NCBI RefSeq assembly: GCF_030503675.1
Contig: NZ_CP129964.1
Span: 1,736,001 to 1,800,000, forward strand
Length of the DNA: 64,000 nucleotides
Origin: Lutimonas zeaxanthinifaciens
Lineage (GTDB): Bacteria; Bacteroidota; Bacteroidia; Flavobacteriales; Flavobacteriaceae
Reading direction: 5' to 3'
The notes under the pieces were generated by a model, which saw only the letters and a list, made by a program, of their open reading frames with translations, ran no database searches and was not told the origin of the DNA. Below are positions 51,556 to 55,271 of the stretch, piece after piece (position 1 is the stretch's first letter; the number at the start of each line of letters is the position of its first letter). The position numbers and the translations under genes are program-made.

Positions 51556-51586
51556 AACCCCTGATCGATGCATCAGGGGTTTTTTA
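51556..51586 (+). terminator. terminator after the aminopeptidase gene
   Basis: AACCCCTGAT and ATCAGGGGTT pair perfectly (10 bp) around CGATGC, followed by a T-run that runs into the end of the convergent XRE gene. Confidence 0.85.
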
Positions 51587-51970
51587 TTTGATATATTCTT
51601 TAAAAGTCCCGTTTTTAAAGAAAATTACAATCCGCTCAATATCGTTTGATATTATCTTTTCTTCTACAACTCCTTCGTTAATGTTTTCCGAAATCCCCAC
51701 ATGCGCATCTGGTTTTGAAATATTTTCCGAGATAAGGGATGCCTGCATAGGAAAGTTTCCTTTACCATTCAAAAGCCAATATAATTCAACCTCGTCGAAT
51801 TCTTTTATAACCTTCATAACAAAGTCCAGGCTTGGTTTATTCCTACCCGAAAGCAAATGAGAAATACTCGATCTGGGAACCTTAATTCTATCAGCAAAAC
51901 CAGAGGCTGACAGCTGGTAAAACTCCATGATTCTTTTAAGCCTTTCAGAAAATTCAGTGTTGTTTATCAT
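51584..51970 (-). CDS. XRE-family transcriptional regulator
   Basis: The 128-residue protein has a HTH domain at about 5-65 (QLSASGFADRIKVPRSSISHLLSGRNKPSLDFV) and a C-terminal part that probably dimerises. Its ATG is three bases from the first of four TTTACA-like palindromes. The second palindrome contains a TAnnTTTG element on the coding strand, so binding there should block its own transcription. It resembles chromosomal XRE repressors, not a phage cI with a protease tail. Confidence 0.9.
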   Translation of the reverse strand: MINNTEFSERLKRIMEFYQLSASGFADRIKVPRSSISHLLSGRNKPSLDFVMKVIKEFDEVELYWLLNGKGNFPMQASLISENISKPDAHVGISENINEGVVEEKIISNDIERIVIFFKNGTFKEYIK

Positions 51971-51972
51971 TA

Positions 51973-52010
51973 TTTACATTTGTAAAATATAATATTGTTA
52001 CAAATGTAAA
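51973..52010. promoter_or_regulatory. XRE operators 1 and 2, overlapping the -7 element
   Basis: Palindrome 1 (51973-51986, TTTACA-TT-TGTAAA) is 3 to 16 bases before the XRE ATG. Palindrome 2 (51997-52010, core TTACA-AA-TGTAA) carries TACATTTG on the minus strand. Centres are 24 bases apart. Confidence 0.65.
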
Positions 52011-52195
52011 ATTTATTATTGATTAACATAATAGTATTTATGAATTCTGCAGTATTTAAAGATAATATCATCTATTTTTTATTTAAGTAAAATTGTTTAA
52101 AAATCTGATATATATTATTTTATACAATATTTTTACTATGAATAAAAATATTTTATAAAGCCTTAGTGTCAATTCTTAATTAAACCTGCCCATCG

Positions 52196-52244
52196 TTTAC
52201 ACTTGTAAATTTTATATTCGAATAAACATGTTTACAATTGTAAT
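52196..52244. promoter_or_regulatory. XRE operators 3 and 4
   Basis: TTTACA-CT-TGTAAA is at 52196-52209 and TTTACA-AT-TGTAAT at 52231-52244, 35 bases centre to centre and about 300 bases before the lipoprotein ATG. They share the half-site of operators 1 and 2. Confidence 0.6.
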
Positions 52245-52385
52245 TTTAAACGGACTTTTGATCTTTATATTCTAATAATGGCAATAGTATAATGATATAA
52301 GTGCTGGTATGAAACCTTCCCAAAAATCTGTCAAAGTCATAACCTAAAAGATTTAAACTCAAAAGTTCCAAATAATTGTGTAGCC

Positions 52386-52409
52386 TTTACTTGACTTCAG
52401 TCAGGTAAA
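52386..52409. repeat. 11-bp inverted repeat with two-base centre
   Basis: TTTACTTGACT faces AGTCAGGTAAA with one G-T pair. It is 133 bases before the lipoprotein ATG. It could be an operator or a leader hairpin; no T-tract follows. Confidence 0.4.
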
Positions 52410-52541
52410 AATTTGCCTTCGACAATGGAGGGGGTTTTTATTGATAACAATCAATGAATTAATTGATTATGGTCATTTTTACTCTTTCTGATACTGTGTA
52501 ATTTGGAAGTTTAATTTCAAAACAACCTAAAATTAAACATT

Positions 52542-53096
52542 ATGAAAAAAATATTTCTTTTAGTGGCCGGAGCATTCTTCCTTTTTGTTTCCTGCCAATC
52601 CGATGATCTGCAAATTGACGAGGCAGCAAAAAGCGCCAAGGCCAAAGAAGTCACCAAAAACATCACCTTCAATTCTTACCAAGGATTGATCGAATATTTT
52701 GAGAACACAGGAGGTTGTGATTTACAATTTGTGCAAAAAGGATATGGCCAAGCCAGTCATATCGGGGCCTATACTTTCGTGAATACAGCTTGTTATACTT
52801 CTTACGGTTTGACAGGTTTTAAAGGCGTAATGACTGCCGCAAATGGGGATGAGATTCATTATACTACAGACGATCCTTTTGTCGAATGTGACAATAATAA
52901 TCCATATGGTTATTGCCCAGGTGAAAAGGCAACCTTCAATTATAAAATCGATGGAGAGCACAGTACCGGAAGATTTGAAGGAGCCACAGGATGGTTAAAA
53001 TTTTACGGTATTTTTCAACCTATAGATCCAGATTCCAATTTACCGGAAGGCGAATTCGAAATTTTCAAAAACGGATGGGGAGAAATCACCTATTAA
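52542..53096 (+). CDS. surface lipoprotein of unknown function
   Basis: This 184-residue lipoprotein (LFVSC then QSDDLQID, outer-surface signal) has cysteines in GGCDLQF, TACYTSYG, VECDNN and GYCPGEK that could make two disulfides. The rest is beta-rich. The long upstream region with XRE-type operators suggests that it is regulated. No family known to me; not obviously an adhesin. Confidence 0.6.
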   Translation: MKKIFLLVAGAFFLFVSCQSDDLQIDEAAKSAKAKEVTKNITFNSYQGLIEYFENTGGCDLQFVQKGYGQASHIGAYTFVNTACYTSYGLTGFKGVMTAANGDEIHYTTDDPFVECDNNNPYGYCPGEKATFNYKIDGEHSTGRFEGATGWLKFYGIFQPIDPDSNLPEGEFEIFKNGWGEITY

Positions 53097-53573
53097 TTTG
53101 ATCCTTTATAAGATATCAAAATTAGCAAATCAAACTTTTTTGATAGCCTCTCCATCTCTGGAGGGGCTTTTTTTACATGGTTATCTAGTTTAAGATTTGT
53201 CACAAAAATACCTTTCTTCATTCTACAACTAACCGACGCATTATGTCATACCATCACCAATAGTAAGGCTTTTCATTACCTCAATTCGAAGTCAGAAAGT
53301 TGTTTCCTTGGTGTTATAAATCAGAGGTTGTTTTTCAGATAGCTCTGGAATTAGACTTAATTTTATATTATTGTTGTTTAAAATCATTATTTAGTCTTAA
53401 ACAACCAAAATAAACTTTCAAGTGTCTTGTATTTCGTTTATAAAATACTATTTACCTCTTACAGAAAAGGTGCATTTTATTTTGTAACATATTTTGGAAA
53501 AAAATCACAAAATAGACACTTAATATACAGAATAACAATATGTTATATAATTTGAAAAATTATCATTTGTAAA
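53097..53573. other. AT-rich intergenic region
   Basis: It holds the terminator at 53145-53174 and otherwise only AT-rich sequence with no credible gene. No perfect TAnnTTTG box was found before the M14 gene. Confidence 0.6.
53145..53174 (+). terminator. terminator after the lipoprotein at 52542
   Basis: A 10-bp stem (AGCCTCTCCA with TGGAGGGGCT, one G-T pair) with loop TCTC is followed by T7, 48 bases after the stop. Confidence 0.8.
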
Positions 53574-54692
53574 ATGAATGAAAAAGAAGTCCATATAATT
53601 ATTGATAATTACGAGGCGTTCAGAGCAGAGAATCTGGATGAACGCCACCTAACCCTTGAAGATGTAAAACCATATTTATCTTCCTTATCAAGAGATTTTA
53701 ATCTTTCTAAAATTGGTCAATCTTTTGAGGGACGAGATATAAATAAAATTGTCTTCGGAAACGGGCCTGTAAGGATTCTTTTATGGACTCAGATGCACGG
53801 AAATGAAAGTACCGGTACAAGAGGTTTGTTCGATCTATTCTCTTTCTTTGAAAAATTTGATGGATTAAGAACGCTCAAGGATCAAATACTTGATAGGTGC
53901 ACCATTCATTCTATTCCAATTCTGAACCCTGATGGTGCATTAGCGTATACTCGGGTCAATGCACAGGGAATTGACCTTAACAGAGACGTGATTGACAAAA
54001 AAGCACCGGAAAGTAGAATCTTGCAGGATATCCTTCAACAAATCAAACCAGATTATTGCTTTAACCTACATGACCAAAGAACCATATTTAGTGTAGCACC
54101 TGATAACAATACGGCCACCATGTCCTTTTTAGCTCCCTCGGTGGATGTTCAAAGAAGCATAACAAAGGGGAGAAAGAAGACAATGAGTGTGATTTCATCG
54201 ATCAATAAAACCCTGCAGCAGATCATGCCTGGCAGGATTGGGCGTTATACGGATGAATTTTACCCCACAGCTACCGGCGATAATTTTCAAAAAATGGGCT
54301 TTAATACCATACTCATTGAGGCAGGTCACAGTAAAGGGGATTATCTAAGGAAAGAATCAAGACTAGGGACTTTTTTGGCACTTCTTGAGGGTTTACGATT
54401 TATTTCAGTTGAATCCGGGTCTGACCAGCATCAGGACTATTTCAATATTCCGAATAATGAAAAGAAATACCTTGACATTATTGTTCGGAACATAGGCCTT
54501 CAGGGTAATCAAACAGATATTGGTATTTTATTTATTGAAAAACTTAAAGAAGGGAAATTGGTGTTTGAGCCAAGCGTGAATCAGTTGAAAAACTTAGCTG
54601 ATTTTAATGCAGATAAGATTCTAGAGGGCAAAGACCTTGAATTTAATGATGAAAAAGATGTCGAGATTTGGGCTAAAAACACGTTTAATTAA
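53574..54692 (+). CDS. M14-family zinc carboxypeptidase
   Basis: The 372-residue protein has zinc ligands H75 and E78 in TQMHGNESTG and H166 in CFNLHDQRTIF, the arginine in LNRDVID and the catalytic-type glutamate E249 in TILIEAGHSKGDYL. There is no signal peptide, so it should act in the cytoplasm, on peptides or amide conjugates. An Lrp gene follows about 93 bases downstream. Confidence 0.85.
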   Translation: MNEKEVHIIIDNYEAFRAENLDERHLTLEDVKPYLSSLSRDFNLSKIGQSFEGRDINKIVFGNGPVRILLWTQMHGNESTGTRGLFDLFSFFEKFDGLRTLKDQILDRCTIHSIPILNPDGALAYTRVNAQGIDLNRDVIDKKAPESRILQDILQQIKPDYCFNLHDQRTIFSVAPDNNTATMSFLAPSVDVQRSITKGRKKTMSVISSINKTLQQIMPGRIGRYTDEFYPTATGDNFQKMGFNTILIEAGHSKGDYLRKESRLGTFLALLEGLRFISVESGSDQHQDYFNIPNNEKKYLDIIVRNIGLQGNQTDIGILFIEKLKEGKLVFEPSVNQLKNLADFNADKILEGKDLEFNDEKDVEIWAKNTFN

Positions 54693-54785: not shown

Positions 54786-55271
54786 ATGTCAAAATTCAAA
54801 TTGGATGAGTTGGATCATCAAATTTTAGAAGCCTTAATTGAGAATGCAAGAACACCGTTTACGGATATAGCTAAGAACCTTCTGGTCTCAGCCGGTACGA
54901 TTCATGTCAGAGTGAAAAAGATGGAAGATGAAGGTGTAATTAAAGGCTCCACCCTAAGTGTAGATTATAACAAGATGGGATATACTTTCATCGCCTATGT
55001 TGGATTGTTTTTAGAAAACTCATCCACAACTCAGTTGGTCATAGAAGAAGTAAGAAAGATCCCGGAAGTTACTGTAGCTCATCTTACCACAGGTAAATTT
55101 TCAATTTTCTGTAAAATACGTGCAAAGGATACCATGCATGCCAAGGAGATTATTTTCAGACTGGACAGAATTGAAGGGATCAAAAGAACTGAAACTTCAA
55201 TTTCTCTGGAAGAAGTAATCAATGATAAGAAAAGGCTCATGCACCAGATATTCAAGGAAATATCTTTTTAA
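54786..55271 (+). CDS. Lrp/AsnC-family transcriptional regulator
   Basis: The 161-residue protein has the N-terminal HTH (LDELDHQILEALIENARTPF, then TDIAKNLLVSAGTIHVRVKK) and the C-terminal RAM domain (AYVGLFLENSSTTQL, then TTGKFSIFCKIRA). It probably senses an amino acid. Its position next to the branched-chain 2-oxoacid dehydrogenase gene suggests leucine or a related amino acid as effector. A CATATTTG stretch before it is a near-match to a -7 element. Confidence 0.9.
   Translation: MSKFKLDELDHQILEALIENARTPFTDIAKNLLVSAGTIHVRVKKMEDEGVIKGSTLSVDYNKMGYTFIAYVGLFLENSSTTQLVIEEVRKIPEVTVAHLTTGKFSIFCKIRAKDTMHAKEIIFRLDRIEGIKRTETSISLEEVINDKKRLMHQIFKEISF

Follow-up and report, generated by a model that had tools for sequence, protein, structure and literature searches.

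A probable DNA-looping autorepressor module with operators in helical register in Flavobacteriaceae

Known repression loops and the XRE locus

Most of what is known of repression loops comes from a handful of E. coli operons and phages. The CI switches of phages lambda and 186 combine a Cro/CI-type helix-turn-helix with palindrome clusters at divergent promoters, autoregulation and long-range loops, and lambda-type CI repressors carry a C-terminal LexA-like (S24) domain. GalR is a LacI-family protein. In the E. coli gal system the repressor loops its operators, one per end and 113 bp apart, with HU bound at the loop apex; repression is best at spacings of 103, 113, 123 and 133 bp, is lifted at half turns and is weaker above 19 turns (PMC4693257). 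XRE dimers are often autoregulatory and bind palindromes (PMC12565409).

We analyzed a 64,000-nucleotide stretch of Lutimonas zeaxanthinifaciens DNA (the window), in which an XRE regulator gene adjoins an array of palindromes, together with the related loci of other genomes. We propose that the array belongs to an autoregulated repressor module of Flavobacteriaceae, in which a dedicated autorepressor would close a DNA loop whose apex is probably bent by an IHF/HU-type protein; we put the probability of this reading at roughly two in three. The module would resemble the GalR-HU repressosome, as described in the source above, in whole-turn operator spacing, read here from sequence evolution, and perhaps in an architectural protein at the loop apex. 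In contrast to gal, with its single operator per end and 113-bp spacing, the XRE array usually has two to three sites per end, about 15–20 turns apart (D3 to P2), and its two promoters, those of XRE and of an M14 peptidase gene, are divergent, one of them serving the repressor itself. With the lambda and 186 CI switches the module shares the Cro/CI-type helix-turn-helix and palindromes clustered around divergent promoters, and it would also share their autoregulation and long-range looping. Unlike them, XRE occurs in nearly all sampled genomes of the family and is partnered by a peptidase-AsnC unit. Pfam searches up to E=1 matched no CI-type C-terminal domain in the XRE protein, which sets it apart from the lambda-type CI repressors.

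In agreement with the preliminary description of this DNA, which knew of no described chromosomal system of this kind, we found no account of such a system or of flavobacterial looping in the open-licence papers searched; the main text of PMC12565409 contains none of the strings TTTACA, TGTAAA, Flavobact, Bacteroid, M14 and peptidase. What had been taken for a simple autoregulated pair is probably a conserved, looped module with an unusual evolutionary record. Looping in gal was shown with engineered spacings, and the Flavobacteriaceae seem to have run the spacing experiment naturally, mostly by whole-turn changes. If this is true, natural genomes already supply a series of loops that differ by whole turns and are bent at the apex, as well as a conserved target for studying looping and bending proteins in Bacteroidota. 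In addition, an uncharacterised peptidase-AsnC unit would gain a likely regulator, and the window would represent a natural rewiring that parted the operator array from its old target.

Regulator, operators and divergent partner

The coordinates of the features are given in Table 1. The helix-turn-helix of the XRE protein scores above the curated cut-offs not only of HTH_3 but also of Phage_CI_repr (29.2 bits versus 22). Beyond residue 72 no Pfam family was matched up to E=1; some regulator profiles of PHROGs align as far as residue 116. Eleven PHROGs families match the protein (best E 4e-10), the majority of them regulators of phage transcription. At the tail a short stretch is conserved (consensus IERIVIF-x(3)-GTFK), no oligomerisation domain was recognised in the protein, and residues M1 and N3 do not vary among 29 aligned proteins. 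A HigA-type antitoxin was considered and rejected: TIGR02607 gave 19.8 bits versus 47.7, and the conserved neighbours are M14 and AsnC genes, not a toxin gene. A search for structured RNA near the array gave nine Rfam matches, every one of them under its gathering score.

Table 1. Coordinates of the features of the XRE locus in the window
Feature	Position	Strand	Remarks
XRE (HTH_3) regulator gene, proposed repressor	51584..51970	-	128 aa; Pfam PF01381 29.7 bits vs cut-off 23
Operator P1	51973..51986		Perfect palindrome, 3-16 bp before XRE ATG
Operator P2	51997..52010		Minus-strand core 52001-52008 = TACATTTG = TAnnTTTG, presumed XRE -7 box
Middle element, IHF-like (TATCAG-N4-TTA)	52081..52114	-	Core 52098-52108, centred on D3-P2 midpoint
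Operator D3	52196..52209		Perfect palindrome; 199 bp (~19 turns) from P2
Operator D2	52231..52244		35 bp from D3, 234 bp from P2; on grid, residual -0.5 bp
Segment absent between D2 and M14 of congener L004	52244..53563		BLAST; ends approximate
Lipoprotein gene with few relatives, inside the 52244..53563 segment	52542..53096	+	Not the ancestral partner
Apparent D1 remnant beside M14 ATG	53560..53573	+	TTATCATTTGTAAA, score 0.7; no fit to TAnnTTTG
M14 carboxypeptidase-like gene, conserved divergent partner of XRE	53574..54692	+	PF00246 39.7 bits vs cut-off 21.6
AsnC/Lrp-type regulator gene downstream of M14	54786..55271	+	NCBIfam AsnC model 131 bits, below equivalog cut-off 227

Matches to the regulator (E up to 0.001) were found in 283 of 299 genomes of the family, in 94 of 148 genomes of the order (20 of them from Flavobacteriaceae itself) and in 20 of 148 genomes of the phylum (14 of them from Flavobacteriaceae). 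Beyond the family, many matches span the helix-turn-helix only.

The four palindromes listed in the preliminary description were all found where it had placed them. Its statement that they have one half-site in common is strictly true of P1 and D3, which match TTTACANNTGTAAA exactly, and a little too broad for P2 (GTTACAAATGTAAA) and D2 (TTTACAATTGTAAT), each of which has one mismatch. Its suggestion of a genome-wide search for other targets of the palindrome led, in the whole 3,534,456-base genome, to two perfect matches, both in the array, and to a number of one-mismatch sites near that of the control. The control pattern (the palindrome read backwards) also has two perfect matches, so copy number taken by itself tells little and the improbable part is the clustering. 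When one mismatch is tolerated, the genome contains 42 such places against 33 for the control, and 4 of the 42 lie within the 272 bp of the array, where about 0.003 one-mismatch sites would be expected (from 38 in 3.53 Mb).

To score sites, a matrix was built from 224 hits with at most one mismatch at 90 loci, the window's own included; these first-set loci are the best-listed XRE matches among the family genomes, not a random sample. With this matrix the four sites of the array top the 64-kb window (17.5–21.5; the next site scores 9.3). At a score of 9 or more there is one site in 269.5 kb of flanking DNA versus 2–6 sites per locus in the training region, and 59 new loci have 3–7 sites each. 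The preliminary description would have counted relatives that keep the regulator but lack the palindromes against its reading; at least two sites are present at all 90 first-set loci.

The usual array, with the trained consensus GTTTACAWWTGTAAAC, comprises distal sites D1–D3 and proximal sites P2 and P1. D1 and D2 are 24 bp apart in 75 of the 90 loci, D2 and D3 34 or 35 bp apart in 60. Where both P2 and P1 are present (71 loci), they are separated by 34–36 bp (57 loci) or 24–26 bp (11 loci), together accounting for 68 of the 71. P1 lies at -6, spanning the XRE ATG, in 81 of the 90 loci, and a recognisable P2 is missing in 17. An alternative architecture, with P2 absent and distal sites about 22 and 65 bp from D2, was noted at L019, L032, L082, L107, L173 and L186; at L167, L172 and L188 only the larger offset (~65 bp) of this distal arrangement is seen.

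Two of the sites have a distinct relation to promoters. TAnnTTTG is directed toward M14 in 74 of 75 D1 sites and toward XRE in 68 of 73 P2 sites; the corresponding counts toward XRE and toward M14 are 23 and 20 of 90 for D2, 6 and 3 of 60 for D3, and 4 and 1 of 88 for P1. At their centre, 74 of the 75 D1 sites have the dinucleotide AA, and 69 of the 73 P2 sites have TT, while the centres of D2 and D3 are mixed. In the window, the minus strand of P2 reads TTTACATTTGTAAC and includes TACATTTG, in agreement with the earlier view that the second palindrome carries the regulator's -7 element; comparison across relatives also favors the earlier reading that the promoter of the XRE regulator is itself overlaid by an operator array. 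In Flavobacterium psychrophilum the TAnnTTTG -7 box is described at -12 to -5 and the median 5' leader is 24 bp (PMC9723704). From this box position we infer the XRE start, predicted near 51996 in the window, about 26 nt before the ATG, and the placement of D2 over approximately -38 to -25 of the M14 promoter. Leaderless transcription of XRE was considered and dropped in favor of the -7 box reading. A clearly conserved -33 box before P2 was not seen in the alignment of the loci. At L004 (G253), L128 (G568), L131 (G571) and other loci of the genus, D1 abuts the M14 ATG, which puts the predicted start at or near the ATG (leaderless).

On comparative evidence, the conserved divergent partner of XRE is the M14 gene, and it replaces the lipoprotein of the earlier reading. 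M14 is the divergent neighbour of XRE in 88 of the 90 first-set loci, the exceptions being the window itself and one contig end, and it is present in all 13 further loci of the genus and all 59 new named loci. In a further 13 XRE loci (L115–L127; five from the family, eight from other families of the order) an M14 match was found in 10 of the stretches, several hundred bases away in some of the outside families, and not found in those of L119, L121 and L124. XRE, M14 and an AsnC/Lrp-type gene come in this order at all 15 wider loci, namely the window and 14 others of our choice. Of the 299 genomes tallied, 275 have both XRE and M14 matches, 8 XRE alone, 12 M14 alone and 4 neither, although the M14 matches may include paralogues. 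The M14 protein scores 23.4 bits with the murein amidase MpaA model, far under its cut-off of 157. L119 (G367), which belongs to the family, has six operator-like sites without an M14 match in the stretch; upstream it has another reading frame, of about 500 codons and with the orientation of XRE. In 8 of the 15 wider loci (L205–L209, L212, L214 and L215) a small lipoprotein-like family, RNCSNF, was noted 3' of XRE, at roughly +424 to +848 relative to the start of the XRE gene.

Helical register, the middle element and the proposed loop

D2–P2 distances in the training loci are 192–193, 202–204, 211–215, 217, 221–225, 233–234 and 243 bp. Counts of this distance exclude the 17 of 90 loci without P2. 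The phase at 10.5 bp is strong (R=0.84, n=73), with 10.25 the best among periods from 6 to 16, and 69 of 73 loci fall within 2 bp of 213.5+10.5n, where the chance of doing so is about 43% (27 of 63 whole distances). This grid was fixed before the held-out loci were examined. The first held-out set comprised 40 loci, of which one, at a contig end, has no distal site and nine have no P2; 28 of the remaining 30 are on the grid (R=0.86). From the second set, 80 named loci chosen by closeness to the query, 19 duplicates, identical over 150 bases at the start codon, and two loci that were too short were dropped; six of the 59 left have no D2–P2 pair, and 45 of 53 are on the grid (R=0.77), a count in which near-duplicates may persist. 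Together, 73 of 83 held-out loci agree with the grid. Those outside the 2-bp window (4 of 73 training and 10 of 83 held-out loci) are up to 3.5 bp off it. D3–P2 distances are near 15–20 whole turns and are not independent of D2–P2, and D2–P1 is phased less well (R=0.60; 0.20 for distinct values). As in gal, the operator clusters thus appear to lie whole helical turns apart.

An EM search restricted to the D3–P2 stretch of the 90 loci (window included), without further positional input, returned the pattern T.ttttTCAgt..tTTAaat...tTTAt.TAAAg. The window's own element scores 23.5 against a 95% shuffle limit of 7.5, and this limit was exceeded in 34 of 39 held-out loci. The element starts 107–110, 117–121 or 126–131 bp from D2 in 85 of 88 loci, and 91–95 or 104–105 bp from P2 in 70 of 72; as the latter distance is mostly 93–94 bp, its phasing is weak evidence (block-jitter p 0.007). 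Loci L024 and L090 (2 of 90), where the middle element was misplaced, are excluded from the phase analysis. Relative to the D3–P2 midpoint, the centre of the IHF-like core TCAR-N4-TTR has a median offset of 0.5 bp (51 loci), being about 1 bp or less away in 30 of the 51 and about half a turn away in 21. Among held-out loci it is within about 1 bp of the midpoint in 14 of 21, and one is 50 bp off. This core occurs at the fixed position in 58 of the 90 loci, and the longer WATCAR-N4-TTR in 20. The IHF consensus is given as WATCAANNNNTTR, with DNA bent by IHF up to 180 degrees (PMC8942017). Two genes of the HU/IHF family are present in the window genome. A protein of IHF/HU type would probably bend the DNA at the apex of the proposed loop.

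The proposed mechanism draws on what can be read in the DNA, namely the sites, their arrangement and conservation, the helical grid, the midpoint element, the loss of sites without the regulator and the inserted stretch; from these we infer binding, repression (rather than activation), looping and a bending protein. The XRE protein would bind GTTTACAWWTGTAAAC palindromes at both ends of the divergent intergenic region. D1 would then cover the -7 box of the M14(-AsnC) promoter, with D2 at about its -33 region, whereas at the other end P2 would cover the XRE -7 box, with P1 sitting on the XRE start codon. Such binding may turn off both promoters, M14(-AsnC) and the regulator's own; repression of both is expected because bound XRE would cover both -7 boxes and the XRE start codon. 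With the clusters in helical register and D3 and P2 whole turns apart, bound repressors could meet across a loop of about 160–210 bp (D3 to P2), probably aided by IHF/HU-type bending at the element centred on it.

The register might instead be a matter of descent. If each end were under plain local autorepression, the grid would reflect spacing inherited from a few ancestors, plus chance; two spacing classes do take 58 of the 73 loci (33 and 25), values are common to relatives, and related loci share descent, so that simple p-values are too strong. Yet a quick tree built from M14 plus XRE calls for at least 24 changes of turn class and at least 42 of the exact distance, a block-jitter null, in which each distinct value is moved as one block, reaches the observed D2–P2 value in 0 of 100,000 draws, and the held-out sets reproduce the grid. 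We consider this explanation very unlikely. Less improbable, though still unlikely, is an arrangement without a loop in which the middle element is an activator site for both divergent promoters, the phase reflects activator-polymerase contact and XRE blocks each promoter locally. The position of the element upstream of both predicted starts, its phasing toward both sides and the match of P2 and D1 to -7 boxes all agree with it. Against it, D3, which lies over no promoter box in most loci, is retained in 60 of 90, and the centring of the core on D3–P2 would be superfluous for an activator; moreover, the core resembles an asymmetric IHF site. The loop closed by the autorepressor remains our preferred reading. 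For its broadest form we see even odds: a family-wide, single-target repressosome, in which a small XRE repressor and an IHF/HU-type bender would hold the XRE and M14-AsnC promoters in one loop, its register kept through dozens of spacing changes.

Target range and the rearranged window

Twelve genomes have M14 matches and no XRE match; for the seven M14 loci with coordinates listed among them, six have no site scoring 9 or more and G152 retains one. The highest score for a middle element ranges from -4.2 to 5.8 at five of the seven loci and is 8.2 in G033 and 11.6 in G152, the 95% limit of 7.5 having been set for a shorter search than these. Because the sites vanish where the regulator is missing, the comparison supports the XRE protein as their likely binder. 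At L114, the locus of G152, one operator-like site and a weak middle element precede M14, perhaps after recent loss of the regulator. An RNCSNF-like frame also lies near M14 in this genome (L161:395-772).

A wider regulon was considered and rejected, with one-mismatch sites near the control number in the window genome and no recurrent gene family among the perfect sites picked elsewhere. Outside the XRE locus, 15 perfect sites (centre AA, AT or TT) were picked among the matches listed for 11 other genomes, one of which (G033) has no XRE match; 13 are in reading frames, two are intergenic and no gene family recurs. Among the matches listed, perfect sites counted by eye are more numerous in the forward pattern than in the reversed control in many genomes. 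There may be a few additional targets in some genomes.

In the window, the array is separated from M14. BLAST similarity to the congener locus L004 (G253) ends in D2 and restarts at the M14 start, and the core of the intervening ~1.3-kb segment (52299–53250) shares 89.8% identity with a sequence on a different contig of G253 (BLAST; L141). Of 13 further loci of the genus, 12 carry D1 on the M14-facing side of D2 at a distance of 24 bp, and L136 does not. In the lineage of the window, about 1.3 kb with the lipoprotein gene would thus have come between the array and M14, and the autoregulated regulator would be left with D3 and D2 as distal operators besides the decayed D1.

The preliminary description had named the lipoprotein as the paired target of the switch, and that part of it did not survive the comparison with relatives. 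Among 100 family genomes two match the lipoprotein, namely that of the window and another with 31% identity. Two of 22 genomes of the genus match it, and the second of these has lipoprotein and regulator on different contigs. As the first listed gene past the distal sites on the plus strand, it could be under present-day control in Lutimonas zeaxanthinifaciens; against this, it was not found next to the array in the relatives examined and it starts 298 bp past D2. That it is now the paired target seems to us quite improbable. Relatives without the lipoprotein at this place still have their distal sites in helical phase with the XRE proximal site.

The ~1.3-kb segment was also noted with loci L141 and L159. 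At 52416–52439, before the lipoprotein gene, a short hairpin followed by a T run was seen by eye, possibly a terminator of a transcript from the old M14 promoter.
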